A stretch of 64,000 nucleotides of DNA from Liolophura sinensis (Eukaryota; Mollusca; Polyplacophora; Chitonida; Chitonidae). Both the position numbers and the translations under genes were made by a program. The stretch spans positions 63,960,984-64,024,983 of the forward strand of contig NC_088300.1 in assembly GCF_032854445.1 (NCBI RefSeq), written 5' to 3'. The number at the start of each line of letters is the position of its first letter. Within the stretch, counting starts at the first letter, position 1. The notes below the pieces were generated by a model, which worked only from the letters and a program-made list of their open reading frames with translations, had not been told where the DNA came from and made no database searches. Positions 20,999-62,031 of the stretch are shown piece by piece.

Positions 20999-21423
20999 TA
21001 CCTTTCCGACACTACTGCAAACTGCTGTTGCATGATAGTCGAAGTTTCCGGTGACCTGAAGCTCACTGACGTTACTGCAAACTGCGATCGTCTTACCAGG
21101 GGTTTAGACTGTATATCCCGAGCATTACTGCAAACTACTGAACATCCATAGAACCAGGAACTTTGCATGTGCCACCGTAACTTTACTACACTTAAACTGT
21201 TAAGTTTGGTCATGGTACCAAAAACCTAACTGACTTATTACAATTTAGAACATTCTTTGTTGGCGAGCTTCTCATATTCTGTCCATCCATAAACTTATGT
21301 TTTAGGCACACCGCGAGAAAATTTAATTTGCAAAATGCCAATGCTTGAATACCAGACTTTTTATGCCAATTCATATCTGTGACGTTGTGCTAATGACCCC
21401 TAACTCACGGTCGCTTGTTTTCG

Positions 21424-21564
21424 TCATAATACCACATTTTTTGAGACCGGGTTGCTTAAACTGTCCACATTTTCCACAGTTCTTTGAACGTGTTTAACAC
21501 GCACAATGTCCGTAAATCGATCACTGTCGTCATCTCCCTGGTCATTGACGACTATCCCGACCAT
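21424..21564 (-). CDS. Conserved 46-residue open frame in U1, possible first exon
   Basis: The frame starts at an ATG and shares IVxNDQ, SDRFT, a KH-QRTV segment and a VD-S-VS segment with the U2 frame at 23960-24118. Many codon differences between the two copies are silent (for example CGA/CGG, TTT/TTC, ACG/ACA), which suggests past selection on protein. A minus-strand CCAAT-type motif (AGCCAATCACAG) lies about 120 bases upstream. The ends of the two frames differ, so a splice donor or a frameshift near the end is likely. No known family is recognised. Confidence 0.35.
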   Translation of the reverse strand: MVGIVVNDQGDDDSDRFTDIVRVKHVQRTVENVDSLSNPVSKNVVL

Positions 21565-22402
21565 CCTTGAGACTAAGCCTACAATCCGGTCATTTGGGTA
21601 AGACGGCGGCAAAAAGAAACAAAATGTCAGAGACAAAACTAGCGAGTGTTCACGGTGATGTTTATACCCAATCTGTGAACTGTGATTGGCTAAATCTGCC
21701 ACGACCTCCGAAGACAATTTAACTAAGGTGATGATGACCGCGGAGTGTGACAAGAGGGAGGGTTACTGGATCACGTCCTTTGAGCTAGTCTGCGCTGATC
21801 ATCTGAGCTATCAGCAGCCCACCGAGGCTTGTTCAATCCACAAATCCCATTATAATGGCTCACTCGTTAATCCTCAATCCGAAAATATACACCGAATAGG
21901 ATGACAGCAATAACAGGTTCTGTTGTTAAAACTGTAAGGGAAATTAACAATCGTTTCTGTACGTATACCCGGGGCGTTTTGTCTCCCAGTCAACCAATGA
22001 TCTGTCACCTCGGATAATATACACCATACGGCGAGTGGCGTTATTGTCAGAGCTGGGTCGGGAAAGACGCTACATGATACCCTGTTCTAGCCCAGGGGCA
22101 AACAGATCACGTAATTATTCCATGTTGGTTCAAAATAAGCCATTGTGTGAAGTTTGGTTTTTAGAAACTTCAGAGAAAAGGTCGCAAAAATTGAAAGTTT
22201 TCAGTAATTGCCAAGCTAACAAGTTATTTATTGATTTTTTTTTGGACAGCAATCGCGTAATTATAGGGGAGAATCACTTTTTATGTTGAAAGTTGAGTTC
22301 GCTCTGGTGCGTGAAGGGTTAACGCCTCTGATATCCAAATTCGTGGAGTAACCATTTTATACTGAGATTCCTCAAGTGGATGAAAAGTATTACCTTTAGA
22401 GT

Positions 22403-22500
22403 GAGTGAGTGAATGAGTTCTTGGGGGTTTAACGTCGTACTTAACAATTTTTCAGTCATATGAAGGAATCCTTAAAGTGCATGTGTTACCTTTAGAGTAA
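22403..22500 (-). repeat. SINE family B tail fragment
   Basis: AGTGAGTGAATGAG followed by GGGTTTAACGTCGTACTTAA and CAATTTTTCAGTCATATGA matches the reversed 3' end of family B. Confidence 0.85.
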
Positions 22501-23278
22501 GCACAGCTTACTGCGGTTGGCTTGGTCGAAATCAGATGAGTGCATAAGATGTTTCACGGTGACCAGTAATGGTACCCTTCTTTTATAGTGGATGCCTACA
22601 ATGGCCTGTGGCCAATCAGGATATATACGTGTGTGTATAAGTGGACCCATGAACTTCGCACACGGAGTACTACTGGAACGATGGGTGGAACCTTACGGCT
22701 ACTTGAAGCTATTCTTATTCTGTTCGAGCAAACTAATTTTACTGATTTAGCCGGACGCTTAATTTCAAGCTCCTTCTGGACTAGACAATGAGGGGGTACG
22801 ATGGACAGCGAGATGTCCACCCTCAGGCTAGTCCAGGGGATATCAGCTGATGTACTAATCTGAAACCGATTGCTGGTATGTATATATGAACATGCAGGGG
22901 TGGTAATCAACCAGAATACTGTAACTTTAAGACTTTCGGAAAGGGGAAAACATGGTCCTTTGAAGTTAAATCTCTCTTTGAATCATGTCAAAATGCGATA
23001 AAGTGACGTATTTACTCGGAGTAAACCTGACAGTAAATGCTAATGTTTGACATTATCTCTTTTACCAGAACAGATAGCTGTGTGCTTCATTAACACGGTA
23101 CAATACACACACTATACCGTCAGGTCAAAGATATCACTCAGAGAGCATAAAACCCTAATGAATTTTAATAACCAACTTCAGATAACAGTAATTCATTTCG
23201 CTTATTCTAATAAAATGCCAGCAAACATAAACTTAGGAGAGAGGCCAGGCAAAGTCAACATGATTACGGTCTAAACAG

Positions 23279-23470
23279 TCAACGATTGTTTTTTTTTTTA
23301 TTATCGGCAAGTACCGAGTCTGTTGTCACGCATCGTGTATGTCTGTCCGTACCGACAGAAGCATTGGTGATCAGAGGTGCCATTTTACTGGACGAGAAAT
23401 CCATGCCTAACTCTACTAGCTTGTCAATTTTGTAAATGCTGATAAGTAAATTGGCTTTGGTGTCCTTCAT
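23279..23470 (-). CDS. Conserved open frame in U1, possible exon (63 residues)
   Basis: It begins MKDTKANLLISIYK and is matched by MKDSKPSLFIGIHK at 31026-31319, with shared SSK and ITN later. A third, broken copy lies near 26300-26430. Conservation of the reading frame in two of three copies suggests an exon of a duplicated gene or element. No motif identifies the family. The region downstream of ITN differs between copies because of indels. Confidence 0.3.
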   Translation of the reverse strand: MKDTKANLLISIYKIDKLVELGMDFSSSKMAPLITNASVGTDRHTRCVTTDSVLADNKKKNNR

Positions 23471-23959
23471 GGCAAGACATCAATAGTAATAAGCGGAATA
23501 GCTCTACTGTGTAATCGTATAACTATTGATCATCAGGTGTGGCCGTTAGTTCTCCATCGCAAACAAGAATAGACCGCTGATCACTTGCAGAATATACATA
23601 ATGTAAAACAAAATGATAACCAACAATTCATAACGTACTTCTGAAAGAAGAATAGTTAGTTCGACAAAGATTGATTATGGTTATAACAATTATTTTGTAA
23701 GTAATCATGGAAGGAGTGTCCAGAATCTCTAGCCCCATGTTAAGCTGAATCAGACACAATTGTGAATGAGACCGCATATTGCCATGCAGTGGAACAAAAC
23801 CGGCACTTTGGATATTTGCGAACAGTAATAAGAAGCTCGAGAGTACCATGAGCCTAACTGACTACTACAGATTTGTTTTACGGCAGTAAAATGGGGAAAG
23901 GAATTCATCAAAACCAAACTGTTCATGTCCTTTGACATTTTTGAAGTTGTGTTAAATGA

Positions 23960-24118
23960 CTACGATTTATCCTCGCTTGCTTTTTTCATAATGCTAGAGA
24001 CAGTGTGACTGGAAGCGTCCACAATTTTCACAGTTCTTTGAGCGTGTTTAGCACGGAGAACGTTTGTGAACCGATCACTGTTGCCATTTCTCTGATCATT
24101 ACCCACAATAGCGGCCAT
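23960..24118 (-). CDS. Conserved 52-residue open frame in U2, possible first exon
   Basis: It starts MAAIVGNDQ and is the best preserved copy of the frame also present at 21424-21564; it reads SDRFTNVLRAKHAQRTV in the middle. A CCAAT-type motif in minus-strand sense lies about 120 bases upstream in U1, and a decayed version lies at the same place here. A stop follows KASEDKS, unless splicing occurs near the GCGAG|GATAAA point. U3 has a scrambled version and U4 lacks it. Confidence 0.35.
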   Translation of the reverse strand: MAAIVGNDQRNGNSDRFTNVLRAKHAQRTVKIVDASSHTVSSIMKKASEDKS

Positions 24119-24313
24119 CGTGGAGACTAAGCCTACAATCCGGTTATTTGGGTAAGGCGGTGAGAAAAAGAAACAAAACTGACAGATACAAAACTGACGA
24201 GTGTTCACGGTGACATGACCTGTCCGAGTCTGTGAACTGTGATCGGTTAAACCCTGGGAACAATCTAAGGTGATGATTGAGGACTGCGCAATGGAGGAGG
24301 GTTACTAAATCAA

Positions 24314-24329
24314 GGGGGGGGGGGGGGGG
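24314..24329. repeat. Poly(G) run
   Basis: Sixteen G in a row. It is prone to sequencing and assembly length error. Confidence 0.9.
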
Positions 24330-26452
24330 TGGTAGTTTCCACGTCCTTTCAGCTAATTTGCGCCTATCCTATTCAAATCCCACCAGAACGACTTCGTCGA
24401 TAATCTGTAATCCGATAATAAAGCGGAGTAGAGATCTAACAGGATGACGGCAAGGAGAGTTCTGGCTAACAGGGATAGGGAAATTAACAATTCTTTGTGC
24501 ACATCTAACCTGGGCTTTTTGTCTCACAGCCAACCACTGAACAGTCACCTCATAGTGAATAATCATATGTAAGGTAATGAGAAAGTCTTGAACATGGTGA
24601 TGTTCTGCTGTAATTACGTGGTTGCTGTCCAGCCAACATTTTGCAGTTGGCATGGTTGGTCACCAATTAACAAATTGTTGCCTAGTTACAAACTGACTTT
24701 ACTCTGGTGCATGGATGTTGGTAAATGTGGGTAACTTCTGATATCCAAATCCGTGGATACGCAGCTTTAAATTAACTCTTGAAATTTACGATGAAGTATT
24801 AACTTCATGGTAAACACAGCTTAGTGTGGCGAAATTTAGTCAGTGTACATGCTTCACAGTAATCGTTAATTGTGTCCTTATAACATAGTCCAGGCCTACA
24901 CTGTCCTATGGCCAATCAGGACATACACGAATAAATCAATCCTGTAAAGCCGTTATGTTTATTTCTAATTATGTTCCCAGAAGTCAGCCAAGTGCACTGA
25001 TCCAGTGCTTACATGGAACGAGGACCACTGCAATAGTGAGTGGATAGGAACTACCGAGTATCGTTAGGCTGTTCGAGCATTCTAATTTGGGAATGCGTTG
25101 GGTGAAAATAGGAAATTTACCATTCCTGAAAGCTAAAGGGTTCCAGGGGACATCAGCTGGTATACTAATTTAAACAGATTGCCGACATATAGATATCGCC
25201 ATGGACTGGTGGTAACCAGGCAGAGTATGATGAAGGGATACTTTTGGTTTGACAACAGTTTGATCAGTTTCAATGTGACCTTTGAAGGTCGTAAGGCATG
25301 TATTATGAGGGGTGGAGTAACAGTTTTACCAAGGACTATTTGGTGTTTGGATGTTAACTCTGAGGAAAGTCTAACGCTGTACTCAATTGGATGCAGTTCT
25401 AGATAACTCGCCAATACAATTATACCTTATAACATTGTCATTTGGGGCTAAATCCCCCTTTCAATGAAAAGGTGTGTTGAAGTGACGTATTTACTCAGAG
25501 TAAACTTGACAACGAAAGTTTACCCCTTTCCCCAGCATCGATGAGTGTGTACATACGGCTTTGTTAAACAAAAAACAATACATAGTTTGCTTTCAGGGAC
25601 AAAGATTACCCAGGATTACTCAGTGAAACACGGCATAAGACACGGGGGAGTTTAATTTTTTCCATTTACAAATTCCAACAACAATAACCCATCAGGCTTA
25701 TCCTAACCAAATGTCAGCACAAGTCAACCAGGAGAGAGGCCAGGCAAATATAGATCTCCAGGAAAGTCATCACAATATAATATTGTCGACAAAACAAATG
25801 TGTTGAGCACGCATGTTTGACTTCCCGTACTGACAAAAGCAGTGGCATTTCTTCTGACCTAGATGGTCATCATTAATTACACCTGGGAAATTTACGATTT
25901 CGGTACCGTGGTGATGTTCTCCCCGTTTCTCTTCCTATAAGCACTTGTACAAGAAAAGATGTGACTTCGATATCTACTTTACGTCCAGATAAAAACTCAA
26001 AGATCTTAATGACCTTGGGGCATAAACTAAATGTATTTAGTCGTGAAGTGTCGAATTGCTGCTCCTGTTTCATGTCACGATCTGCTTCTTGCGACAGGTC
26101 TGTTTAGCGAAGTGACTTCAAACAATGTGATTGAAATACAGCAAATACTTAATATATTACATGCTTTAAGATACGCGTCTGACCAGCAACCCGTTTCCAC
26201 TGCACATAACCTAAGTAATTTGGAAAGAATTATCAGTATTCGTAAATGTGACAATTACATTATACTTCCTCTACCCTTGTAATGTTTCTGGCAACTTGAG
26301 AAGAAATACTTGAATACTGGATCTCAGAAGTGGCCATTTATCGGAAGGGAAAACTGTGTCTGGTTTCACTAGGTTGTCATTTTTGTGAACCTGATAGGCA
26401 AAGTGTCTTTGGAGTCCTCATGACAAAACAGTTAAGTGCTAACTCTGAGAAG

Positions 26453-26522
26453 AGTGAGTGAGTGAGTGCTTGGGGTTTAACGTCGTACTCAACAATTTTT
26501 CAGTCATATGACGACGAAACTC
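26453..26522 (-). repeat. SINE family B tail fragment
   Basis: GTGAGTGAGTGCTTGGGG, TTAACGTCGTACTCAACA and CAGTCATATGACGACGAA form the reversed 3' end of family B. Confidence 0.9.
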
Positions 26523-26839
26523 TGAGAAGAGTCCTAAAGAGTATCGTATAATTATTGATCGTTAGGTGTGGTCGTCAGTTCTCTATGGCAATTAAGAACC
26601 ATCCCGGAATAACTGAGTATACAGAAAGCTGAACAAAACGGTAATTAACTTTTCCTAAAGGATTTACGTGTCCTTCTCCAACAAAAATCGTTAATTGCGT
26701 GCTGGTTGCCTATGGCTATGAGTAACTGTTGAAGGACTAACCAGAATCTCTGACGCTCTGTCTCCCAATTGTATTAAATCCCTCTCAACATGGAGATGTT
26801 GAGCCCGTATCCGCATCGAGTAGAACAAAACGGCCAGTT

Positions 26840-27150
26840 TGTGTATATGAACAGCTGCAATCAAAGCGCAACTGAAATAAGGTTTAATTAGTTACATCTT
26901 AAGAATTTGAATACACTATTTGAATACTGATTAATTTTATTCGCCTAAAGAGTATTCGTTGTGACTCTCTGTAATCGCTTAAACATTGTTGACTCTTCTT
27001 TACATGAATCTTTATTTCTGTACTTTTTGTAGTTTTTTGGTGGATTGTCTTCTATGTGCTTTCGGAAAATATTTTTGGGGTACCGCTCGAAACGTTAACA
27101 ATGATTGACGGCTGATGTACAAATGTCTTTTTCTAAGCATAGATTAAGGG
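26840..27150 (+). repeat. Block M repeat
   Basis: It has the block-M order: TGCAATCAAAGCGCAACTGA, a TTATTCGCC piece, GACTCTTCTTTACATGA, GATTGACGGCTG and AAATGTC...GCATAGA. Confidence 0.75.
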
Positions 27151-28260
27151 TGTCAACAGATTATCAAGGCTTGGCAATCTACTTGTTTCGATGTACCCAT
27201 ATGTTAGTCGATCCTTCATTAGTGTTACGATTATCAATATTTTCTGTGTATATTATATTATTATCTGCGACTTTATAGTGATATGCACTATGTATATGTT
27301 TCATGTTATCTGAGGCATAAAAACCTTGGGAATCTCCACTTTCTTCCCAGACACACTCTTTTCCCCAAAGGTATGTTTAATGTGTATACATCTATGGATA
27401 TGTCCAGCTAAGTCAACGATATCTGAATTTCTGTCAGCCCTTTGATCTCCCCGCCAGTGTTACCAGGAAAATACTTGAAGAATGGCGGAGTTAATTTCTG
27501 CGATCAATTGTTCAAGTTTATTGTTCTATTTAATTTTATTTGCTACATTATCCGTACCATCCGAGGTTCAATTTAATATCTCACGATTCTTTCTTTTGCA
27601 AAATATAGTTGTTCACATGAAAAGTAATGCTAATTTCACCTCTGAACTCGGACATTCCATCGTAGTATATAAGACAATGTACTGTTCAGCCAAATCATTT
27701 TGATCCTTTGGTTACCTATTGCTGTTTCCATTTCTACACTTTTGTTTCTTTCTTTGTCGCACATCTTCTGTTGCTTGTTGTTTTTTTTCTTCTTGATATC
27801 CGCGAGAACGCCCATAAATCGTAAAGCTTTAAGACGGGTAATTCGCCAAACTTCACTACCTTTTCACGTTCAGCCAACCTTTTTCTACAGATCACCTGCA
27901 AGACCAAATATCCATAGTCATGAATACTTTATGAACAACAGTAGTGTTAGTCAAACATAATTGTATTCGATTAGATGCCATCCCATGTTCTCAATAACAA
28001 TGTCCGATATCCGTGAATGTACTTTGTAGCCCAAGCGTTTTGATCTTTTAAGTATCTATTTCCTTTTTTCCACAACTTTGTCTCCTTTTTTGTCATATAT
28101 CTTCTATTTCTTGTTCTTTTGTCAGATCTTGAAGTATTATACATGAATATTATGTTCACTCCCAACAGATCTTGTAATGCAGTATTTCATACAATATAAA
28201 TGATGCATGATATGTATGATGAATAATAAAAGATTCGTGGCTGGCGGAAATGCTCTCTGA
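27151..28260. other. No gene seen
   Basis: AT-rich. A short internal similarity exists between about 27700-27960 and 27995-28160 (TTTTGATC...TATTTCC...TTGTTTC...CACATCTTC-like text), and a further related piece lies at 31920-32050. These may be parts of another dispersed repeat. Confidence 0.45.
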
Positions 28261-28264
28261 AGAG

Positions 28265-29010
28265 GTTGGCAAACACTCAAAATCTAAATATTGTATCTAC
28301 TCAACCAACCTGCAGTTGGCCAAAGCCTGATCATAACGATGGCGAGCCTATTCTAAACTATAATACTGTCAACATAAAGTTTCATATGAATTGTTTATGT
28401 CGCCTTGTTTTGCCTGGAATTAATCAAACCTCTTTACGTAATGATCTTCAAAGTTTGTGCCAGATAGAACAATATCCAAATTCGGTTATGTCCAACAAAA
28501 GCGGTTTCAGTTAATCATCCTCAAACTAGCCGAATAACAACAACAACGTCTCCATTACAAGATTTACTAGCTCATTTTTTATTAACGTCAGAGAAACACA
28601 CCCACAGTGTTTTCTGGCTTCAGTAGGACCTGAGGCTTTTTGCCTTGACATTAGATGTCTTCTTCGGCTCATTTATTCCCAGTGATCGATGCAGAGTGGT
28701 GAAGATAGCCACGCGAATTGCTTTGTCCTTATAAAGGGGTGTAAGTAAAGAGAATGTTCAAACCCTATATGGATATTACCTCATAACATGTGTAGCTAAA
28801 AACATTTCTGCGATTCCAAACTCATAAATCAAGGTCATCATTACCTCGCTTTAGCCTTCATGTCCAGGTGTGATCCCAAATGAGATAAACGTTTATCCAT
28901 GCCTGTCGTTAGTGTATACAATGTTACTTCAGTAAACCCACCGCCTCCATCTAATTTCCTGACGTCGTTAACTCTTACACAATGTTACTGTGTACATGAT
29001 GATCCCAGTG
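28265..29010 (-). repeat. Module Y, copy 1 (decayed)
   Basis: It matches 34045-34760 over CCTGCAGTTGGCC-like text, ACTAGCC-AATAACAACAAC, TCCATTACAAGATTTACTAG, AGGTGTGATCCCAA and GTTAACTCTT. Frameshifts and stops break the frame that stays open in copy 2. Confidence 0.75.
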
Positions 29011-29699
29011 CCGTCGAGTATACATAGACACTGAGCAGCCCTGTAAATATAAGTTTGAGTCGGCTCTAGTCACCGACACCGAGTCACCTTCAGTGACATT
29101 GTGTCTCCACTGTACATGAGAGATCACCGAACAATCTATACAGTGAGGTGTCAACACCATCCCCGCCCACCTTACTTAGCATCGCACACATACGTCTTCT
29201 ACTTACAGGTGCATATTTATACTTGAGTTTCAAATACATCCACCGTTCCAAGAAAAAGGTTATGTGGAAAGCATCCTGATTTGTAACGTATTCGAAGTAT
29301 CTTCAGTGGAGCCATTTTTATTCTATTTTTACGAAATCATTGTACCAGGTGTACTTCGACCGTACCTCATGACATTACTGCAGTCTTCTATGCATGTTAT
29401 TTGGGACTACAAACTGTTGAATGTCTTCATGATAGCTCTTCAAGTGTAAGTTCAAGTGACGTCAGGAAAGCACATATTCTGATTTCTTGATAACTTTGTT
29501 CAAGGTTGAATGTACCAAGAGTTTCACTGACTACCACAGTGTAGAATAATTTTGTTGTTGTTGACCCATGGATCGCGTGTTCGAATCCAGTTTTTCCTTG
29601 TTCCGATGTGGGACCTGGTCTGGAGCAGTGCTTTCCTGTTTGCTCTGTCTTGTTCTCTCCGCCCATAAATTCAAATTGAAGTAATAAAATTCATGACAA

Positions 29700-31620
29700 A
29701 AAAAATTTCATGAATGTCCTTTGATAACTGTGAAGTTGTGTTACTGACTCGACCTCAACCTCGCTTGTTTTTAATTCATTACATTACTACTTTTTTCCGG
29801 ACTGTGTTAATAAAAACGTCTTTGGCTTTTCCACAGTGTTCAGACTATTGGAAATTTGAATGTTTTTACCATGCACAATGTTGGTATAAACAGCCCGATC
29901 AGGTCATTGTGAACACTCACCAGTTTTGTCTCTGACGACAATCTCGACCAAGCCTGTACACCTAGCCAACCACCATTTACCTAGGTCATTTACATAGCGC
30001 GGTGCAAAAACAAAAACTGAAAATGCCCAGAGAGATGACAATACAGATCGATTCACAAATTCTGTGAACTGTGATTGGCTAAATCTACCAGGACCTCTTG
30101 GGACAATTTAACTAAGGCGATGATAAGGGTTACTTGATCACGGGGATGGATTTCCACGTCCTTGCCACTAATCTGCTCCCATCCTCTCAGTGAGCTATCA
30201 GCGGCTCATCGGGGATTTTTCAATCACCAAAGTCCCAATCGGCTCAATCGGTAATCTGTAATCCGATAATAAAGGGCAGATTAGACATAATAGGATGACT
30301 GCAATGATAGACTAGCTCAAACGGTTAGGGAAATTAACAATTGCTCCGATACCTATAACCTGGGCGCTTTTTCTCCTAGTCAACCAATGATCAATCACCA
30401 TAATATACACCATACGGCGAGTGGCGTTTTGAGTTGCGTCGGATAAGACGCTATATGATACCCTGTTCTAGCCCAGGGGGAAACAGATCACCTAATTATC
30501 CTATTTTGGTTCTAAATCAGCCCCATACAAAGTCCACTTTATTGCGGGGACCCTGGTCTTCCACCACTTCATATCAGTTAATGTACTAATCTGAAATGCT
30601 GGCATGTAGATTCTAGGGTGGTTGTAATCAACCAGAATACGGTAAATTAAAGATTTTCTGTAAGGGGAAACCTTCGGATAAACGATACTTCGATCACTTT
30701 TATTGTGTCGTCAAAGCAACCCATTTATTCAAATGGATGTTGCCAAACATGCAGTATCTGGAGAGTTATAGCAGTATTTATCCCAGGACTATTGCTGTTT
30801 GGATCTTAATCCCAAGGAAAGCCTAACGCTGTCGACTCACTTTGATACTAGTCTTGATAGCCGCTAACATAGTTATACCCAATAACACGGTCATCTGGAG
30901 TTAAATCTCTCTTTGAATCGCGTAAAGATGTGTTGAAGTGACTCTGTCAAACAACAATGAAATAGAGAAATAAATATCCACTCTTTTTCTCTTCTCTTCT
31001 CACTTTCCGTTGAAAGCTTATAATTTTACTGTGTATGGTTGTATACGTATTTATGTGGGCCAAATATGCATCTGACCCACAAACCGGTTTTTACTGTACA
31101 CAAGATAAACAATTTGGAAAGAATTACCACTGTTCGCGAATGAGACTTAATTGCATTATTCTGACTCTCCCATTGCAATGTTTCTGACAATCTGGTAAGA
31201 AAGATTCGTATATTGGTGATCCGACGTGCCAATTTACTGGAAGCGAAAACTGTGAGTGAGTCAGCTATATTGTAACGTTTGTGAATCCCGATAAACAAAC
31301 TGGGTTTGCTGTCCTTCATGGAAATGCAGCGAAGTCCTTACAATAGGATAATGAGATTAGGGCTGTCGACTAATTGTATAACTATTGATCGTTAGGCATG
31401 CCCGTTCGTTTACTGTCACAAACAAGAACCATCCGCTGATCACAGATCATATAGAAAAGAAAAACACAAGGATAACTACCTTTTCATACCGGACTTTCCT
31501 ACGTGTCATTCTGAAATAAGAATCGATAACTGGGTACAGATTGTCCATGGTTACAGCAAGCCTGTTGTAAGTAACTGTGGAAAGAGTGGCTAGAATATCT
31601 GGTACTCTGCTCTAGTTGAT
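29700..31620 (-). repeat. Local duplication unit U3
   Basis: It shares the U1/U2 block order with larger deletions: GATTGGCTAAATCTACCAGG, CGATAATAAAG, CACCATACGGCGAGTGGCG, CCTAACGCTGTCGACTC and ACTATTGATCGTTAGGC. Parts of the first-exon-like frame are rearranged. Confidence 0.65.
31026..31319 (-). CDS. Conserved open frame in U3, possible exon (97 residues)
   Basis: It is a homologue of the frame at 23279-23470, beginning MKDSKPSLFIGIHK with SSKLARRITN downstream. It stays open for 97 residues. I recognise no domain. Confidence 0.3.
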   Translation of the reverse strand: MKDSKPSLFIGIHKRYNIADSLTVFASSKLARRITNIRIFLTRLSETLQWESQNNAIKSHSRTVVILSKLFILCTVKTGLWVRCIFGPHKYVYNHTQ

Positions 31621-32135
31621 AGAGAAACTTAACGCATGTTATTTATTTGTTTTGGGGGGGGGGGGGGTTGTTTCTTTTTTTATACGTTTTTTAAAATGTT
31701 TTTTTCTAATATACCTTAGTGATTGAATAGAGTTAATCTGTTTAACAAGCACACGGTTTAAAGGTGTTACATTTGGGGACAACTGTAGCAGGTCACAATC
31801 CAACATACAGCTCAGACCTCATACTTTGTACTCCCTCACACGAGGAAATATTGAAAATATTTATAAATATAGCTAGAATATGCTCTCCACATTTACTAAT
31901 ACTGAGCGTTGTTGTTCTGGCTAGATGTTTGATCCTTTGGGGATCTTTTGCTTTATTTTCCACATTTTTGCCTCTTTGTTTGTCACATATCTCCTATTGC
32001 TCAAATCTTCAAAGTCGATCTATATGTACTAGTATTTTTTTTTTTATAAAAGACAGTATACTGAATAGCGCAGTTAGGGATTTATTGTAACTATTCCAAC
32101 GGTGCCCACTTCCAACATATTTTGTGAATGAAATA
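31621..32135. other. No gene seen; poly(G) run
   Basis: It contains a G run (31654-31667) and a T-rich tract at about 32036-32044. The 108-residue frame at 31764-32090 has no recognisable motif. Confidence 0.45.
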
Positions 32136-32139
32136 TCTG

Positions 32140-32478
32140 ATACTATGGAGCGTCTGGTTCGGGAGTAGATCCAGCGTCAATCCTGGATCGAGTCACACCT
32201 AAGACTTTAAAAGAGGAAGTTGCAGCTTCCTCGATTGGCGTTCAGCATGAAGGGGATAGTGCAAGGACTAGTTGACCCGTATCAGTATAATGGCTCGGGC
32301 GGGGCAGCTTACTTGCCTTCGGTAAGGCGTCTCAGTGAAGCAGCACTAGACAAAAGAGCGGTGGAAATCTGTCCTGCAACAATGAGGCACATTACATGCA
32401 CTCTAATGATTTCTTTGTCGTCATATGACTGAAAAATTGTTAAGTACAACATTAAACCCCAAGCACTCACTCACTCTG
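32140..32478 (+). repeat. SINE family B, 5' truncated
   Basis: It starts inside the head (CGTCAATCCTGGATCGAGTC), keeps the full body (ACTTGCCTTCGGTAAGGCG, AGTGAAGCAGCACTAGA) and ends AACCCCAAGCACTCACTCAC. Confidence 0.9.
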
Positions 32479-32984
32479 ACGCAATGTAAATGCATTATAT
32501 ACAATAAAACACTTGCAACTGGCGTAAATACTGTCTCTTTTGAGCTAAATAACCTCCCCAAAAGGTAAATATCTTATGTTATCTAACCAAATTACAGCTA
32601 GCCAATGGCCAACAAACAAACTGATTTGCGAGGAAAGCAGCGCGACGATGAGCGAGCGGGGGTCTTCTTTAAGAAAATTTCATCCTTCAACTTGTCATAT
32701 AAGCTAGCTCCTCTGACATCTGATGAAATGATAGATTGCTACATCTATTTGATTGATGTTTCACGCTGTGGTTAGGTGTTGGACGAGACCTATAGCGATG
32801 GTAGTTTCAATTTTCACATAGTAAATTATCCATGGTTGGACAGCAGTATACCGCAGGGTTACATATTTCGCCATGTAGCATTTGTTAGATTCCGTGTGTT
32901 GCGTGACGAATTCACAAGTTATTATTGCAAAAACTAGTGTGTCAAGGTTATTTCAGGAAACGCCTTCGCTCTAAGTTTCTTAAG

Positions 32985-33620
32985 ATTTACGATGAGTACA
33001 ATTCTCAAAAGTAAATATGGATAGACCATCCAGAATCTCTAGCCCCGGGTTAATCTGAATTGGACACAGTTACGAAGCAGGATTCCGAGGCCACACGCCT
33101 ACATATCCACGTGGCTATATGATGAGTTGCATTATGGTTTATTGTGGTTGACGGATAGTACGCGAATGTCTGTTTCGATTGACGATGGCCTGATCGGAGA
33201 GTTTATACCGAGTGCATGAACTTTAATTTGCTAAATCTACCAGGACCTCCAGGGACAACCTAACCAAGGTTATGATCGGAAACTGCGCGGTGGGGAAGGG
33301 TTACTAGATCAGAGGGATAGCTTTGCATATCCTTTCAGCTAATCGCGCCGACCCTCTCACTGCGTTATCAGCGGCCCACCGAGGTTTGTTCAATTCCCAA
33401 ATCACATTAGAATGGCTCAGTCGGTAATACGTAATGCGATAATAAAGTGGAGTGTAGACCTAATTGAATGACAGCAATAACAGATTCTAGCTAAAACAGT
33501 AAGGGAAATTAACAATTGCTTCTGTGCGTACGATCAGTCACCTCGGGTAATATACACCATACGGCGAGGGGCATTATTGTGACTGTTGTGTGGTATAAGG
33601 CGCTACATGATTTCTTATAC
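32985..33620 (-). repeat. Local duplication unit U4 (partial)
   Basis: It has only two U blocks: AGAATCTCTAGCCCC (33030-33050) and the segment from CTAAATCTACCAGGACCTC to CACCATACGGCGAG. The blocks between them are missing. A small block-M piece (GGTTGACGGATAGTACG...TGTCTGTTTCG) lies between. Confidence 0.65.
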
Positions 33621-34044: not shown

Positions 34045-34760
34045 AGGTTTTGGCTAAAAAGCCAAAAGATCTGGTTGGATCAGATAAGACATTTAACACA
34101 TGGAAACTAAAATACTGGCAATATGAAGCTATATGCCATTGTTCATGTCGCCTCCTGTCATTTGCGATTTGTAAAACCTCTTCAAACAACTTTCTTGAAA
34201 ATAACACACCATGCTGGGGCGAGGCATTTCTGACTGGCTTCAGGGTATCCTGTTTTTAACTTTCAGATCATAAAAGATTGATATTGCTCAAACTAGCCAA
34301 ATAACAACAACTTCTCCATTACAAGATTTACTAGGTCATGTTAATTTTCTCCGAGTGTTTTCTGGTTTCACTAGGCCTCGAGGCGTCTTTTGCGACAGAT
34401 TTAATCTCAATGATCGATTTAGATTGGTGAATGAAACCTTGCGCATCATGGATTTGTTGTGCTAAACCGGTGAAGGCGGATTGATTGTGAAAAGCCTGGA
34501 TAAATATCACCCTATCACTTTCGTAACCAAACTGAAACACTTGTGCAATCCCAAGCCAGTAAATCACGCGAACTGGGATACTATTTCCATGGGTATTACT
34601 AACCCGCAATAGCCTATATGCCCAGGTGTGATCCCAAGTGAGAATGATTGGACGATGACCCATGTCTGACGCTAATGAATACAAAGTTACTTCAATAAAT
34701 ACCCCGTGTCCATCGATTTCCCCTCGTCATTAACTCTTGTACAATGTCATTCTGTTATAA
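34045..34760 (-). repeat. Module Y, copy 2 (best preserved)
   Basis: Partner of copies at 28265-29010 and, in two separated pieces, 40085-41290. It contains the open frame at 34331-34720. Confidence 0.75.
34331..34720 (-). CDS. Open frame in module Y, possible exon (129 residues)
   Basis: The frame runs from a possible start-of-exon at GAAATCGATG through TEVTLY/IEVTLYSL-like text, LTWDHTWAYRLL and ESDRVIF to a TAG at 34331. Copies 1 and 3 place a plausible acceptor AG just before the same GAAAT point and keep the EVTLYTL-like stretch, but are broken later. The protein is soluble-looking and mixed in charge. I recognise no family. It may be an exon of a duplicated gene or of a transposon. Confidence 0.35.
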   Translation of the reverse strand, partial: EIDGHGVFIEVTLYSLASDMGHRPIILTWDHTWAYRLLRVSNTHGNSIPVRVIYWLGIAQVFQFGYESDRVIFIQAFHNQSAFTGLAQQIHDAQGFIHQSKSIIEIKSVAKDASRPSETRKHSEKINMT

Positions 34761-35639
34761 TGACTTCATTGTCGGGTATTGCATAGATGCCGATAAACCC
34801 TGACAATATAATTTTGTGGAGAAGCTGCCGATGCCGTTTGTCCTTCTGTGCGTCCAATCCCCAAGAGCGACCACCCACCGATCTGACTTGTGTACAGTGA
34901 TGTGTTATTACTGTTTCCACCCACCATATTCAGCTCGTAAACGCACGTCATCTGCAGGGACAGGGAATGTTATCCGAACCTTAGCGGTATTGTGTGGCTT
35001 CATCTACTCCGTATAGTTTACACGCCTTGTTCGTGACCCAGGTCTTAAACGGTCCCTTTTTGTCAACACGGTCTGTATTTGAAGAGAACCTTATCGATGA
35101 TTAATACAACTGACGTTAAAATGCGTCATGTTTACATCTGATAATGTCAAACATGTAGCGCGAGCAAGGCCATAAGCAGCCCATTCTTGTCAACACCATT
35201 ATGGGGTCATTTGAATATGTTTACAGTTCAGAAGGTTTTCATTGAACTTTGTTGTTGTAACAGTTGTTGGGATTTGAAATGGAATTAGGACTAAAAGTTT
35301 GATTAGAGTGTATATACTTTTATACTACAAATTACTAGAAACGTTTCTTGAGTCAAATGACGGCTAATTATGATAAAATGCCGTACATATTGATGACTAG
35401 AGTGCTCTGGTATATATTATGCATAACTACAGCAAATATCCATAATTATGAATATTTTATGAGCGACAAATCCGGTAGTCAAAGATAACATTGTTTTAAG
35501 CCCTGATTTATTCACCTGTTGTAACACGGTGTATTATAAGTGACATGGTTATAGAATACGCAAATATATGGGTCATAATATGAAGGTTACTGACACCATA
35601 CATTTCTATATCCTATCACTGAGTAACCATGTAACAAAT

Positions 35640-36265
35640 TTACCTTACAAAGACCCATCATTTCAGTGCAGAAGACCGATGTACAGCCGAATCGCTTCAG
35701 TGATGTGACCATTGTATGCACAATCCAGCAAAGGGAGATAACCTACTCAGCAGACAAATTGGATGTCGACTGCAGGATTCGAGAATATATCTGTAGCCCA
35801 CTTGACCATTGTTGTCCAATGAAAAGCGGAGTAATATCTGATGGGATATAAAATTTCAACTCTTTCTGGACTCGTCCAGGCTGTTTATGCCGAGTTCCAA
35901 ATTTGACTCGCAGTGAACACTGTCCGAACTGTTTGATTTCCCTTAATAAAGAGTTGGCCAGCCATGTTGACTTCTTTGGTCCCATAGCTGTAGGTGAGAG
36001 CGGCTATAACACCAGACGACAAGCGACAAGAAAACACATATGTACGTTGACCGACATCTATGATTTAGGTTTCCAGACGTCTAATCTTCTGTAAAGGCTA
36101 CGTGATGAAAACTCCCGGGAAACATTCGATATTTTATAACAACAGAATCCTCATTGGTTCATTGAAGAACAAATGACAGAGTCATTGATAGTTCGGTCTT
36201 TCTTGATTCCACACTGTTGGATTTCAAAGGATAAGTGAGGGTCTTATGCTAAAGTGAACATGAAC
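35640..36265 (+). repeat. Module Z, copy 1
   Basis: It is homologous to 44450-44960, from TTTGGTCCCATAGC...GGCTATAACACC through TTCGATATTTTATAACAACAGAATC to CATTGATAGTTCGG. Confidence 0.75.
35852..36094 (+). CDS. Conserved open frame in module Z, copy 1
   Basis: It codes an 80-residue frame with several cysteines (CLCRV, EHCPNC) followed by FFGPIAVGESGYNTRR and a stop. The second half matches FCGPIAKGGIGYNTKRRR at 44478-44771, with mostly silent third-base differences over the core. It may be the last exon of a gene. No family is recognised. Confidence 0.35.
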   Translation, partial: NFNSFWTRPGCLCRVPNLTRSEHCPNCLISLNKELASHVDFFGPIAVGESGYNTRRQATRKHICTLTDIYDLGFQTSNLL

Positions 36266-37849: not shown

Positions 37850-38235
37850 CAAGTAATATGACCCGCAAGACGTGTGATGAATTTGCAGCAAATAATTAGT
37901 TTTAGATCTTTCAGACGTTTGGCTAGGCGTCCAATCACAATAACTGATAGCGAGGTTCCCTAAGGGCTGTAAGATGGAACCAACGCGATTTTGTCACGAC
38001 CGACTTTACTCCAGGTCTTTGTTAATATCACCTTGTTAAGCTTTAGGCATAATCATGCCCATATTTCTACTGGTGGGATGGGTACAGTGAGCCAAGAAGT
38101 TAAAAGTCATTAGCTATCAAAAATATGTTGAAAGGGTCATAATATCTCGCTTAAAGTGCAAAATCGGAAATAGCCAGATTATTCAAGGTCAGATTAGTCA
38201 TTGATAAGCGATTTTTAACTGTGCAGACTCGATGC
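37850..38235. repeat. Module R', copy 1
   Basis: It shares AATAATTAGTTTTAG, CAATCACAATAA, CACGACCGACTT and AAAATCGGA with 41590-41960 and 44970-45345 in the same order. Minus-strand frames are open in parts only. Confidence 0.7.
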
Positions 38236-39400
38236 GGGTATCTATCTAAAGCCCTGGAGACGACAGTGAGACTTTGGGAAGGAAGTAAACAGTCATGGAA
38301 TAGATCCTCGGTAGAGTGGAATTCTGCACAGGTGACTTTTGAACTCATTTGGCCAACAGAGATGTCTTTCAGAAAAAGGTTCGATAATCGCCTACAACCA
38401 CATGGCGAATTGTGTACATTGTACATTGTGAATGGAGTAAAGACAAGGTCTCGTATTTAATGAGACTAAAGTCATAAGTTGCACGTGCTGAAAGCCCCAA
38501 ACTAAGAACAAGAAGGGACTCAAGTTATAGTTGGTACATTGCTCTACAATAAAGAATCGCTGTACAAATTTCAAACTTCCCACACCAAAACATTTTAATT
38601 GTAAAAGTCTCAAAAGGGTCCAAAATTCAATTATTGAAGCAGTTGGATAGTGTTAGCATTTGATGAATTGCTCTAATGGGATATGTAAGCACCTTTATAA
38701 ATGTTGAAAGCGTGTAATTAGGGCATGTGTAATCACATGATTAATGTTGCAAGCAAATGATGATTAGCATAAGCGCATTAAAAGCTTTATGGTTTATGTT
38801 ATAAACATAACACTAGGCGTGTTTACCTAGTATATAGTCTTGGGACTATCGGATGGTTTATGTAATATATTTATGGATGGGATAAGCACACAACAGTAGC
38901 TTAAACGGCCACATGCTAATGTATTGGTGTTGGGATTATGGCGAAAACAAACACTGAACACGGGATCGTGTCGCATGTTAAATCGCGTAAAAAAGACATA
39001 CTATAAAGCGTCAAGGCGTACGGCCTGATCTGTATTGAGAGAATCGTAATAGTATTGCATTTTTTCCCCAAACGAAATTGGCCCTTAAGTAGGAAAGCGG
39101 CGCAAGAAATTCGCCACAGGAAGATATGCTGATGCGAACTTTTTTCTGCTGTTAAGTGTAAAGTTTCTCATCTGCCTTTCGCAGGACATTTCGTTGCTCC
39201 TTTAATTTACATTTACTATTCCTCCTATGCTTGTAACATTTATCACGTGCTTAAAATGGTTCCTGCAACCTTCACGTATGTAGGTTACTTAGCGAAAGAC
39301 ATTTACAACACATCACGGGCATCCACTTTTCTATGGCCGAATGATGACGGCATCCGCGTTAAACTAACTGGGGAGTCATTTCTTTTGTCTTTGCACGGAG
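38236..39400. other. No gene seen
   Basis: A short piece at 39060-39180 (AAGCGG...GAAGATATGCTGAT...AACTTTTT...CTGCTGTTA) matches 44170-44250, so the dispersed modules extend here. Nothing coding is supported. Confidence 0.45.
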
Positions 39401-39650: not shown

Positions 39651-40084
39651 AATCGGCATTGAAACACCTCAGTTCGTCGATACATATGAAAATTATGTTA
39701 GAAGTGACGACGAATCCAAGAAATAACGCGTTACTGATCATATTTAAATGAGACAGCTTAGTGATCGTTACACCAATTTCATAAGGTTGAGCAGAAAAAC
39801 CTTCAGCCTGCAGTACGGTTTGGTATTTTTTCTCTCAGGTTACTGCTTGCTGGGCTTACTGAGACAAGCATAAGTTAGTTCTGTCCACCCAAGCTCTAAA
39901 TATCCTCATATTATTTTATTTTCTTGTTTCTACTAAATCTTGAAATTTGTTATTCATGTAAATTCTTTACATTCACAAACATCTTGTATAATTCCATATC
40001 TGACACCATATAAATGCATGCAGACTTTTAAAATACCTGAGGGTTTAGTAAGTACTCTCTCTCTCGAGAATTATAAATGCTTAA

Positions 40085-40410
40085 CTGTTACAACATCTCA
40101 TCTGATCACACTGCATAATTTGCAGTTGGCCAAAACCTGGAGATAAACGATCATTTTGAAATACATCCAACACGAAGATTTATGAAATTGTTGTATTTCT
40201 CGTGGGAGTAGTGAATCCTTTCCCACCTAAAGTGTTGAAAATAGCAATATATAAATATCACACTATCACTGTTATATTTACATGATAATGGCTGTAGTAT
40301 ATTTCGTAAAGAGAGTCGCCTATATTCAGTGGTCTGTAAAATCACACTGTAACTGTCATACTCGCTACCAAAATTGCCCTTAGTAAGTGATACGTAACAA
40401 CACAATGTTA
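40085..40410 (-). repeat. Module Y, copy 3, left piece
   Basis: It keeps TTTGCAGTTGGCCAAAACCTGG and AAATATCACACTATCACTG, as in copy 2. Its right end is also one arm of an inverted repeat with 41056-41150. Confidence 0.65.
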
Positions 40411-41150
40411 GAAATCCCTATTCTTTCAAAGAAAATCAAATTAGAACACTTTTTCTAATGCTTAATGTTAAACTGCATAAGTTCAGTTTCGACGCCAAGA
40501 ACTCATTGCCTCGAGTGACGCCGTAATTATTCAAAAACTAGTGCATGCTGGGGAATGGGTGTTGAGAGTAATTAGTTTTACACTAGGTGCACTAAGATGT
40601 GGTTAAAACAAACTCCACGCAGTAACACAGCTTTCACTACTCTCTCAGCGAATAGTCTACATTGTTTTTTATATCAAAATTTTCTAATATCCAGCTCTAA
40701 AACCATACTGTTGTGAGATCATATACTACAACAAATAAAATTTAACCATTTATTAAGGTTATATTATACTAAAACGTGTAAACAATTTAAAATATGGCAG
40801 AGTAAGAAACAGGGTTTACTGTAACATCGATAGCAGTTTTGGTAAGTGGTGTCGCCCCCCATCAAAAGGTTGTTGAACTCCGTCAAATATCCAGCATGTC
40901 ACTGTTTTTTAAATAATTATGATGTCACTCAAGGCAATGGGTTCTTGCCGTCGAAATCGAGAGTATAGACTTTACCATTATGAACTGGAAAATTCTGACT
41001 TCATTTTCCTTGCAATAATATGAATTTCAAACATATCAATGTGTTGTTGTGTGTCAGCGACTAAAGGCAATTTTGGTAGCGAGTATGACTGATTTTACAG
41101 ACAGCTGAAAATAGGCGACTCACTACAGGAAATAGACTATAACTCGTATA
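40295..41150. repeat. Inverted repeat, arms about 100 bp
   Basis: The arm at about 40295-40398 (GTCATACTCGCTACCAAAAT, GTCTGTAAAATCA) is the reverse complement of the arm at about 41056-41150 (ATTTTGGTAGCGAGTATGAC, TGATTTTACAGAC). The spacer is about 660 bases. One arm continues into module Y, so part of the module was copied and inverted. Confidence 0.85.
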
Positions 41151-41290
41151 AACCTTTATGCCTAGAGGTGATCGCAAGTGAGAAACACGTTAAACCATGT
41201 TTAGCGTCAGTGTATGCAATTTTACTTCAGTACATTCTCCGTCTCCGTCGATTTCCTTACATCGTTAACTGTTTGTAACGTTTTCAGAGA
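41056..41290 (-). repeat. Module Y, copy 3, right piece
   Basis: AGGTGATCGCAAGTGAG, ATTTTACTTCAGTA and CCGTCGATTTCCTTA match copies 1 and 2. On the minus strand a short frame reads EIDGDG then TEVKLHTL before a stop. Confidence 0.7.
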
Positions 41291-41589
41291 ACATATACTA
41301 GGTTTGTATGTATAAATCCCCGGCATATTCTTGATGTTTTACACGTTTGACATTAAATGTAAGTAGGACCCATTTCAACGTATATATTCAAGACTGAAAC
41401 AGTTATCATCGATACTCTTCAATGGAGCCCCGTTTTTCAAAAAAATGAGCGGCAATATAATCCTCATTTTTCCCCACACGTATGTGGGTTTGACTAAATC
41501 GCACAAACAATACATATACATCACGTTACTCCTAAAATCAATAAAATCTACGCATAAATAATATGAGGCACTATAAACGTTTGATGAGT

Positions 41590-41960
41590 ATCACCTTGAA
41601 TTCTTGAGTAAATGGCAGCAAGTAAGTCGTCTTAGGTATTGAAACCCGACGTGTAGCTAGCCGTTCGATCACCAGAAATTCCCTAAGGTGTGTAATACGG
41701 GACCAGTACAATTTTTCACGACCGACTTCACTCTAGAGCCTTAATAAAATAATCTGTAGATATACCCTTACCCAAATTCCCACTTTTGGGTTCTGTTATC
41801 TGGCCGTGTACAATATTTTTCTCGAAAGATGACAACATCCCGCTTGTATAATGCCAAAATCGGACATGGCTGTGATGTAACATGTCTTTGAGGTCAGCTT
41901 TGGCATTAATTGCTACTTGGTCAGCGATTAAATAGTTGACATCGGCGTCTAACATGCCGC
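41590..41960. repeat. Module R', copy 2
   Basis: It has the R' order: CACCTTGAATTCTTGAGTAAA, CACGACCGACTTCACTC and CCAAAATCGGAC. A 75-residue minus-strand frame at 41728-41955 is open only in this copy. Confidence 0.7.
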
Positions 41961-43864: not shown

Positions 43865-44260
43865 ATGAGTCGAAACAGACATTCACTTACCAGTGGTCAA
43901 CCAATAATGACGTTTCGGGTCAATAATCGCAAGCCCATTCCCAAAACGACGTATAGTAAGTAAAATGCGAAAATATAGGACAGAATCATGCAAGAGAAGC
44001 AGTTAACAGCTTTGACTGATGCTGGAAACACTTATACCGGATTAAGATCGCATCTAATGACCGAATTGCATGTAAAACAACGCGCCATTACGTTTCCCGT
44101 TCTACAGTCAGCATTATATCTTGACTTTTTTCAACGTGTTGCCTTTTTTTGCAACAAAAATGGGACTTAAAGGAGAAAAGCGGGGCGAGAAAATGTATGA
44201 AGCCACGAAGGGAGATATGCTGATCTGAAACTTTTTCAGCTGTTAGAAGAGTTTTTAGTT
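43865..44260 (-). repeat. Block M repeat upstream of module Z, copy 2
   Basis: It reads GTCGAAACAGACATTCACTTACCAG, CCATTCCCAAAACGACGT and ATCATGCAAGAGAAGCAGTTAACA, the reverse of block M, and then continues into a piece shared with 39060-39180. Confidence 0.75.
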
Positions 44261-44449
44261 TGACTTCCAACAAAATTGCATTAATCTTTAAATCTGTATC
44301 TCTATCTATGCCTTTGTGGAAAAAAGGCTGTATACTTTGCCCACAAAAATGTTTGACTGTTGTAATAAACATTGTGTGTATGTATTTGTTTAGGCTACTT
44401 GGGGATAATTGTCTGTGAGTAGATGCTTTCAAATGCCTTTGTAAACGTT

Positions 44450-44960
44450 TGTAAACGTGTCCCCTATTTTCCCAGGTAGTGATGTGCCCATGGCAGATAT
44501 GTTATCAGCGCAGATTTATTCAACTGTCATCTTTGACACCTCTATGTTGTACATGCCGGAATCAGAATGTCCGCAAGCCATCTCACCAGCACTGGTCAAT
44601 TCCCTAAGTGTGCGATTCTCTTTGAATAAAAGATTGATCTGCAGTCTTGAATTCTGTGGTCCTATAGCAAAAGGTGGGATCGGTTATAACACCAAACGAC
44701 GGCGGGTTAACTTTGACCTGGGGATGGCCGCAAGGAAACTTACAAGAGCGTTTGCTGGCGGAGACGTCTGATCTTCAGTACAATAAATAAGTGAAGCAAA
44801 CTCCCGAGGTAACGTTCGACATTTCATAACAATAGAATCTTCACTCGTTCATTGACAATCGTATGACAGGGGTCATTGATAGTTCGGCCATTCTTGATTC
44901 AACACTGCTGGACCTCAATAGATGAGTGGGCCCTCGATGGAAAGGCCTCGTGATTCGTGT
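44450..44960 (+). repeat. Module Z, copy 2
   Basis: It pairs with copy 1 at 35640-36265, through the GGTTATAACACCAAACGACG coding core and the downstream GTCATTGATAGTTCGGCC. Confidence 0.75.
44478..44771 (+). CDS. Conserved open frame in module Z, copy 2 (97 residues)
   Basis: The sequence follows the acceptor-like TATTTTCCCAG. The frame reads GSDVPMADMLSAQ, then CPQAISPAL, FSLNKRL, FCGPIAKGGIGYNTKRRR and ends RAFAGGDV with TGA. The core matches the module Z frame at 35852-36094, while the N-terminal part is specific to this copy. It looks like the last exon of a short secreted or basic protein, but no signal peptide exon is proven and no family is recognised. Confidence 0.4.
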   Translation, partial: SDVPMADMLSAQIYSTVIFDTSMLYMPESECPQAISPALVNSLSVRFSLNKRLICSLEFCGPIAKGGIGYNTKRRRVNFDLGMAARKLTRAFAGGDV

Positions 44961-44969
44961 TTCAGGAAG

Positions 44970-45345
44970 ACTAGAAGCTGTCTCACCTTGAATTCTTGAG
45001 TAAACTTGCCACCAATAATTAGTTTTAGGTATCATAGTCAGATGCTTAGTTAGACGTCGGATCACAATAAATGATGGCGAAGATCCCCTAAGACCTGCCA
45101 TAGTTGACCCGATTTATCAGTACGGCCGAGTTTTGCCACGTCCTCCTTTTCCAATGTTCTTGATTACTTTCGCCTTGTAAACCTTTAGCCACACAGTCGT
45201 CTCCAGACTTCTACTTGTTGAATGATTAGTAAGTCATTGGCCAGCCAAAATATGTTCTCGAAGCAAGCACAATATTTTGCGTAAGGTCCAAAATCGTAAA
45301 TGACTTGATTTCACGCGATTAGCATTGGTGTTTAGCAATTGTTTT
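44970..45345. repeat. Module R', copy 3
   Basis: It has the same order as the other two: CACCTTGAATTCTTGAGTAAA, AATAATTAGTTTTAGGT, GGATCACAATAAATGATGGCGA and TCCAAAATCGTAAATGA. It directly follows module Z, as copy 1 follows Z copy 1 at a larger distance. Confidence 0.7.
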
Positions 45346-45448
45346 CTGTTTGTTCAGTGTTTTGCAGTTGATGGGACAGTCGTTCGCCGTGATGGTTATG
45401 TGTTACTATACCTATATCATTAGTTATATCATTAAATGACTTTAACTT

Positions 45449-49575: not shown

Positions 49576-49793
49576 AACACTGCTGTGATTTCCCCAGTCT
49601 TGTAAATGCCCTGACCTCTAATACTTCGTGCCTTTTACAAAACATTAGCCGCACAAGTATAAGGATCGCACGAACATATTTGTACAGCTCCCCCCTTTTT
49701 TTTAACATATGCCGTCCTGTGAACATGAACTTAATGCGAGCCGTGTTTCCTGGATTTTGATGTGCCGTTCGTGACGTTAAAGCCTGTGCGCTG

Positions 49794-50775
49794 GTGCTTG
49801 TTCGTGTTTACCTGATTGCGATGATGTGCCGTTGTATCTGGATTGCTGCCGTTTGCGCCTGTGCGCTGGTGCTTGTCGTGCTTACTTGATTGCGATGATG
49901 TGCCGTTGTATCTGGATTGCTGCCGTTTGCGCCTGTGTGCTGATGCGTGTCGTGCTTACTTGATTGCGATGATGTGCCGTTGTATCTGGATTGCTGCCGC
50001 TTGCGCCTGTGTGCTGATGCTTGTCGTGTTTACTTGATTGTGATGAGTGCCGTGGTATCTGGATTGCTGCCGTTTGCGCTGTGTGCTGATGCGTGTCATG
50101 CTTACTTGATTGCGATGATGTGCCGTTGTATCTGGATTGCTGCCGCTTGCGCCTGTGTGCTGATGCTTGTCGTGTTTACTTGATTGTGATGATGTGCCGT
50201 TGTATCTGGATTCATGCCGCTTGCGCCTGTGTGCTGATGCTTGTCGTGTTTACTTGATTGTGATGATGTATCGTAGTATCTGGATTGCTGCCGTTTGCGC
50301 CTGTGTGCTGATGCTTGCCGTGCTTACTTGATTGTGATGATGTGCCGTTGTATCTGGATTCATGCCGCTTGCGCCTGTGTGCTGATGCTTGTCGTGTTTA
50401 CTTGTATTGTGATGATGTGCCGTTGTATCTGGATTGCTGCCGTTTGCGCCTGTGTGCTGATGCTTGTCGTGCTTACTTGATTGCGATGATGTGCCGTTGT
50501 ATCTGGATTGCTGCCGCTTGCGCCTGTGTGCTGATGCTTGCCGTGCTTACTTGATTGTGATGATGTGACGTTGTATCTGGATTGCTGCCGTTTGCACCTG
50601 TGTGCTGATGCTTGTCGTGCTTACTTGATTGCGATGATGTGCCGTTGTATCGGGACTCCTGCGGTTCGGCCTGTGTGCTGATGCGTGTTCTTGCGGTTCG
50701 GCCTGTGTGCCTGATGCGTGTCTTGTTTACTTGATTGTGATGATGTGCCGTTGTATCTGGATTCCTGCCGTTCCT
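49794..50775. repeat. 74-bp minisatellite, about 13 units
   Basis: Units start TTGATTGCGATGATGTGCCG at 49886, 49960 and 50034 and so on, a 74-base step with rare one-base indels. Each unit holds GTTGTATCTGGATTGCTGCC and GCGCCTGTGTGCTGATGC. Since 74 is not a multiple of three, the long open frames with repeated CRCIWIAAACA-like text are by-products. The array decays after 50640. Confidence 0.95.
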
Positions 50776-60885: not shown

Positions 60886-61280
60886 TCCTGTTTTGATCAT
60901 GGTATATACCGGAAAAGGAATTGTAAGATACAGCCGCTCCCCTCCCATTGATTTCTCTCCGTATTTATGAAAGTTGTACACCTAGTGATAATAATATCAT
61001 CATTAAATGGAGAAATGCGAAACACCGAGCCTTTTATGCCAGAGCAGCAATATTTGGAAACAACATAGCCGAGAAATATTAAAAGTATTCAGTTTTATTC
61101 GCTTCAAATTCTAAAACATTGGGGCCAGGCCTCCGGTATGCTTAATCTATCATTTTAACATACCTCCAAAAGTGTTAGCATCAGGAAAGCTACAAAAGTG
61201 CGTTCAAACTGAACATCTGCCGTCCACGTTATGAACGCTCGTACAGATCCATTTCGTTAATTAAATAGGGGCGTTACGTC

Positions 61281-62005: not shown

Positions 62006-62031
62006 GGCGATCAAGGCTGTGCGTTATCTAG

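Follow-up and report, generated by a model that had tools for sequence, protein, structure and literature searches.

Does a kilobase-scale unit repeated in the genome of the chiton Liolophura sinensis represent an undescribed gene family, a large mobile element, or the debris of ordinary duplication? The question is raised by a stretch of 64,000 nucleotides on contig NC_088300.1 of the assembly GCF_032854445.1 (C6:63960984-64024983), hereafter the window. In an earlier note made from the letters alone, four ordered copies of a unit of 2-3 kilobases (kb), here designated U, were recognised at 21370-33620. The repetition is real, and the region is very probably non-coding DNA in which local tandem duplications accumulated long ago in several layers, most likely generated by unequal exchange and followed by decay. 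Positions below are those of the window unless a contig handle precedes them.

Structure of the U Array

Self-comparison of the window revealed clear direct diagonals between the copies, which establishes the observation of a repeated unit. In 21300-33620, 26 self-match pairs reached E ≤ 0.001, and not one of 50 dinucleotide-preserving shuffles yielded any pair. The 26 comprise 18 direct pairs between U copies, three direct pairs of another element designated T/S, three pairs between pieces resembling short interspersed nuclear elements (SINEs; one direct and two inverted), and two weak inverted pairs of 33 and 71 bases, which suggest a small inversion at 29864-29936 in the head of the third copy. 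Five U remnants were identified, as follows; the plus strand only marks their shared orientation.

21298-23830, plus strand: U1, a long copy with a head (~21298-22141), a body, and a tail (~23363-23830); self-BLAST and four-way alignment.
23902-26854, plus strand: U2, a long copy directly after U1, holding a short SINE-like insert; self-BLAST and four-way alignment.
29646-31609, plus strand: U3, a shorter copy with one gap of 497 columns relative to U1; self-comparison, alignment, and genome search.
33009-33076, plus strand: tail-only U remnant, matching 23699-23766; self-comparison.
33195-33611, plus strand: head-only U remnant, matching 21653-22078 and 30065-30459; self-comparison, alignment, and genome search.

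The unit is 2-3 kb long, and all five remnants lie in one orientation in the self-comparison. Among the diagonals, 21298-22141 of U1 corresponds to 29646-30522 of U3, and 21340-22011 of U1 to 23902-24551 of U2; 21653-22078 of U1 is matched by 33195-33611, and 26171-26760 of U2 by 31064-31609 of U3. The four-way alignment retains the order of head, body, and tail in U1, U2, and U3, in agreement with the shared order and orientation described earlier, and the insertions and deletions (indels) differ from copy to copy, also as described. Identity among the U copies ranges from 65.4 to 77.0% over six pairs of copies.

The number of copies had to be revised. The tail-type piece at 33009-33076 precedes the head-type piece at 33195-33611, and therefore the partial fourth copy, U4, is not a single unit but the tail of one U and the head of the next, which meet at an old tail-to-head boundary. 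Thus, the repetition stands while the count of four becomes five.

Extension of the Duplicated Zone

The duplicated zone extends past the region first reported. Five further elements, designated T/S, V, X, W, and Z, are present as direct duplicates with two or three copies each, up to position 45349. Of the 162 pairs found in the window, 130 were excluded on the basis of a manually compiled list of repeats; all 29 remaining pairs in 21.3-45.4 kb are direct, as adjacent copies in a local tandem array are, and three others were left at 60.7-63.4 kb. The copies are listed below.

27667-28340, plus strand: T/S copy 1 (130-base pieces at 27667-27796 and 28007-28132, then 28093-28340), with partners within 31928-32605 and at 39906-40151; self-comparison and genome search.
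28355-29200, plus strand: V copy 1, with partners at 34104-34953 and 41140-41273; self-comparison and genome search.
31928-32605, plus strand: T/S copy 2 (31928-32001 and 32477-32605), its two pieces separated by a SINE-like repeat of high copy number; self-comparison.
34104-34953, plus strand: V copy 2; self-comparison and genome search.
35901-36237, plus strand: X copy 1, with a partner at 44580-44928; self-comparison.
37875-38222, plus strand: W copy 1, with partners at 41588-41790 and 44980-45349; self-comparison and genome search.
39052-39219, plus strand: Z copy 1, with a partner at 44136-44305; self-comparison.
39906-41273, plus strand: T/S copy 3 (39906-40151) and V copy 3 (41140-41273); self-comparison.
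41588-41790, plus strand: W copy 2; self-comparison and genome search.
44136-45349, plus strand: Z copy 2 (44136-44305), X copy 2 (44580-44928), and W copy 3 (44980-45349); self-comparison.

Copies Elsewhere in the Genome

A genome-wide search, proposed in the earlier note as the way to tell a local array from a transposon, was performed at the DNA level over 609,464,459 bases in 632 contigs, with very common words skipped. All matches to the head of U1 (5), U3 (11), V (2), W (3), and T/S (2) were inside the window. The query composed of the rest of U1 and of U2 yielded 47 matches with 40 of 2999 candidates scored; eight lie within the window, and the 39 beyond it all sit on query positions 4287-4378, which are the short SINE-like insert of U2. 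Confinement of the U body rests mainly on the U3 search, in which five of five candidates were scored, while the matches listed for the U1/U2 query were filled by the insert. Within the limited sensitivity of these searches, which did not include X and Z, no copy of U, V, W, or T/S was found outside the window, and the many dispersed copies of a transposable element were not seen for U. A spacer piece at ~32912-32998 has one match, on contig C2, with 81% identity.

Coding Potential

The suggestion of an undescribed gene family could not be upheld: there is no codon-position bias, no frame-preserving indel pattern, no credible Pfam match, and no excess open frame, and the minus-strand frames previously called conserved behave like other frames. 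Among the 135 small indels (up to 30 bases) in the six pairs of U copies, 30 have a length divisible by three, below the third expected by chance. None of the 32 gap-free blocks (at least 45 bases with at least 68% identity) showed codon-position bias at p < 0.05. In a separate pairwise alignment of the U1 and U3 heads, the spread over codon positions was uneven (38, 19, and 26, counted across gaps), and none of the 11 indels was a multiple of three.

Counts of synonymous and non-synonymous changes revealed no frame with a consistent synonymous excess. Of the changed codons in the stop-free minus frame of the head block shared by U1 and U2, 8 are synonymous and 23 are non-synonymous; the other five frames have 5-9 synonymous ones. 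Short blocks with more synonymous change in one frame do occur, such as a 72-base block at 23514, where 8 of the 14 codons that differ in a minus-strand frame do so synonymously, but that frame has stops. The longest open frame of the copy consensus (2754 bases) is 133 amino acids; in 300 shuffles, the median was 125 and the 95% value 185. The Pfam search with 105 frames of at least 50 amino acids from 20.5-35.5 kb matched five families with one member each, the best at E 0.013, which corresponds to chance.

Structured RNA and Short Identical Runs

Rfam gave nothing at the gathering threshold in the window, and the covariation term of the consensus fold of the three head copies was unfavourable at +4.79, a value based on three sequences only. 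When conservation was scanned along the alignment of the copies, the best 40- or 80-column window was no higher than the best of the shuffles.

The two longest runs of identical bases among the copies were also searched for outside the array. Inexact matches numbered 7, against 7 for reversed controls, for a 21-base run, and 10 against 16 for a shorter run. The pattern search with the 21-base run allowed up to 3 mismatches. Six outside places were examined, and they share just 16-20 bases with U. At four of the outside places, the 21-base run occurs in one identical variant; all four are copies of a dispersed repeat that has only 17 bases in common with U and was taken as unrelated. This repeat is ~99% identical over ~600 bases on contigs C4, C8, C11, and C13, so it is probably young. 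On contig C137, which is 91,535 bases long, the shorter run is matched twice within a satellite that shares 16-20 bases with U and was likewise taken as unrelated. The satellite (C137:1200-5200) has a period of ~550 bases and an identity of 94-98%.

Origin of the Cluster

Tandem duplication followed by decay, the history proposed earlier, is supported by copies recovered only from the window in the genome-wide search, by their direct orientation, and by their differing indels. Neighbouring units would have given rise to further copies through unequal crossing over or replication slippage. The copies would then have drifted, under no selection for a protein or a structured RNA, and mutation, deletion, and SINE insertion would have worn them down. 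Local segmental duplication by unequal crossing over likewise produces adjacent low-copy units in the same orientation, copies confined to one locus, and partial copies, whereas the present cluster is strongly decayed (65-77% identity for U), layered, and composed of several unit types over ~24 kb. Satellites and minisatellites are also head-to-tail copies of one unit, but the U copies are few, kilobases long, low in identity, and interrupted by many large indels, and Tandem Repeats Finder (longest period 500) reported no array covering the U unit. A tandem gene family cluster resembles the array in order and orientation, but no coding signal was found in the U copies.

Several observations weigh against decay of non-coding duplicates as the whole account. 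U1 and U2 are 79% identical at 21443-21624 with no indel, and one minus-strand frame is stop-free in both. Of the 83 base pairs in the fold of the three heads, six are kept through double changes. Conservation among the copies clusters more strongly than after shuffling of the columns, with a variance about twice the null mean and above all 300 shuffles (windows of 20, 40, and 80 columns; 1471 columns with at least three copies, 53.7% identical). U1, U3, and U4 agree in every base of the 21-base run at 22015-22035, where U2 has a gap, and a run of that length appeared in 20 of 10,000 shuffles. Such clustering could reflect uneven alignment quality, different ages of the copies, or gene conversion, the first and last of which are simpler accounts than selection; short blocks under selection could also produce it. 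As for confinement to the window, the V search missed the window copy at 41140-41273 and the T/S search missed 32477-32605 and 39906-40151; therefore, equally worn relatives elsewhere may be missed as well.

Two other interpretations take up these signals. If the units were once multi-exon genes and are now pseudogenes too worn to show their frames, the tandem order and the same orientation would fit, as would the minus frame of 112-113 amino acids found in U1 and again in U2 over the same head block and the blocks of 60-180 bases between less conserved stretches, which look like exons. Such a decayed gene array is improbable given the lack of a consistent synonymous excess, the 32 blocks free of codon-position bias, a consensus open frame within the shuffled expectation, and a best Pfam E-value of 0.013 among 105 frames. 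The chance is similarly small that the units are tandem regulatory or non-coding RNA units whose short blocks are still selected, for instance the runs at 22015-22035 (21 bases) and 21937-21951 (15 bases). The clustered conservation and the long identical run speak for it, as do motifs read by eye in several blocks and taken here to be CCAAT-like; the empty Rfam result at the gathering threshold, the unfavourable covariation in three sequences, run matches outside no commoner than in reversed controls, and the mere 16-20 bases shared with U by the six places examined speak against it.

That an unrecognised low-copy, large mobile element was inserted here repeatedly and left remnants is very improbable. 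The unit lengths vary and two units are reduced to a tail or a head, as remnants of insertions might be, but the copies are packed within one 12-kb stretch in a single orientation and across an old tail-to-head boundary, the genome-wide DNA searches found no copy elsewhere, and no credible transposase-like domain was found in the array. The earlier mention of a large element is thus not supported, for lack of both dispersed copies and such a domain. Its companion remark that no ordinary transposon signature explains the whole unit agrees with the window-only copies and their direct orientation, although the worn unit ends were not searched systematically for terminal repeats or target-site duplication.

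Inserted Repeats and Relative Age

Local tandem duplication can be placed in time relative to three repeats inside the zone.

26441-26531: short SINE-like piece (~26455-26517) in the tail of U2, the source of the 39 outside matches noted above.
32148-32476: interspersed SINE-like repeat, not part of U, between the pieces of T/S copy 2.
~40295-41141: palindromic foldback repeat with many copies elsewhere, parting T/S copy 3 from V copy 3.

A 14-base word stands on either side of the short piece, at 26441 and again at 26518, and the alignment shows that U1 and U3 are without it at the corresponding site. Thus, the duplication of U is older than this insertion. The repeat at 32148-32476 is 89-93% identical to 39 outside places among the matches listed (best 40 of 7447 candidates). 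Judged from their positions, this longer SINE-like repeat and the foldback repeat were probably also inserted after duplication.

Comparable Arrays in the Genome

The window with its flanks (124 kb) was compared with control regions chosen at round coordinates on contigs C2 and C9 (60 kb each) and C1 and C12 (50 kb each). Sequence matching another region was masked, and pairs of at least 80 bases lying roughly 1-15 kb apart were counted, minisatellites included. Local pairs occupied 17.1% of the unmasked bases around the window, 22.0% on C9, 10.4% on C2, 3.5% on C1, and 16.1% on C12. The 48 pairs on C12 lie in two stretches that by eye resemble short-period arrays, and C9 and C2 also hold some minisatellites. 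With minisatellites set aside by eye, a comparable decayed array was present on C9 only; C2 has a weaker, wider-spaced set and C1 small pairs only.

The C9 array (C9:15003200-15015552) contains both direct and inverted copies. Searched against the genome, it gave 10 local matches and, among the matches listed, 39 outside ones on one small dispersed piece. A second array was found 5-27 kb past the window (69319-91126 in window coordinates), with pieces at 69.3-73.9, 79.2-84.3, and 85.7-91.1 kb, offsets of ~10 kb and 5-7 kb, and some pieces in three copies; one genome search with it gave three matches, all local. Over nine pairs from this downstream array and the C9 array, 22 of 123 small indels were multiples of three. 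The segment C9:15007404-15007800 is open over 130 amino acids in one frame, yet none of its 14 indels is a multiple of three; because of this open frame, the C9 array is less surely non-coding than the U array. Across the right end of the window, more direct duplicates run from 60699-63371 on to 65510 (60699 with 63048, 60874 with 63269, 60986 with 64646, and 62349 with 65236).

Such clusters are not peculiar to the reported place, with two further strong cases in a small sample of ~280 kb of flanks and controls. A tentative and rather doubtful extension is that much seemingly unique intergenic DNA of this chiton was built by recurrent kilobase-scale local tandem duplication followed by decay, that the present cluster is one visible layer of it, and that short kept blocks could be retained regulatory elements. 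If this wider pattern is true, chiton genomes would owe a measurable part of their sequence to local duplication, a part that libraries of interspersed repeats may miss because each family sits at one place. The present case shows that what looks like a striking "family" in the raw letters can prove to be ordinary duplication followed by decay. Among the papers listed on chiton and mollusc duplications, judged by title, none treats such arrays in chitons, which says little about novelty; likewise, no listed title on decayed non-coding repeats was relevant. The partial genome duplication described in Liolophura (PMC12005716) is at the scale of linkage groups and is a different matter from local arrays. 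The published Liolophura assembly (PMC11068029) first carried the species name L. japonica, which a later correction changed to L. sinensis (PMC12441733).

Neighbouring Genes and Other Features

Upstream of the cluster, a plus-strand gene has likely exons at 3661-3894, 5821-7536, and ~8018-8264. It includes a PH-like stretch (E 0.0003, below the Pfam cut-off), an open frame of 572 amino acids without a Pfam match, and half of a PDZ domain, whose match (E 8.7e-7) was assigned to its frame by motif search only. The PDB search with the 572-amino-acid exon was empty, and no further exon of this gene was recognised downstream.

Beyond the cluster, a minisatellite at 49782-50688 consists of ~12 copies of 74-base units with a higher-order period of 297. 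An open frame of 295 amino acids at 56617-57501 on the minus strand encodes a DDE_Tnp_4 transposase domain (E 5e-40) with its helix-turn-helix, and is Harbinger-like.

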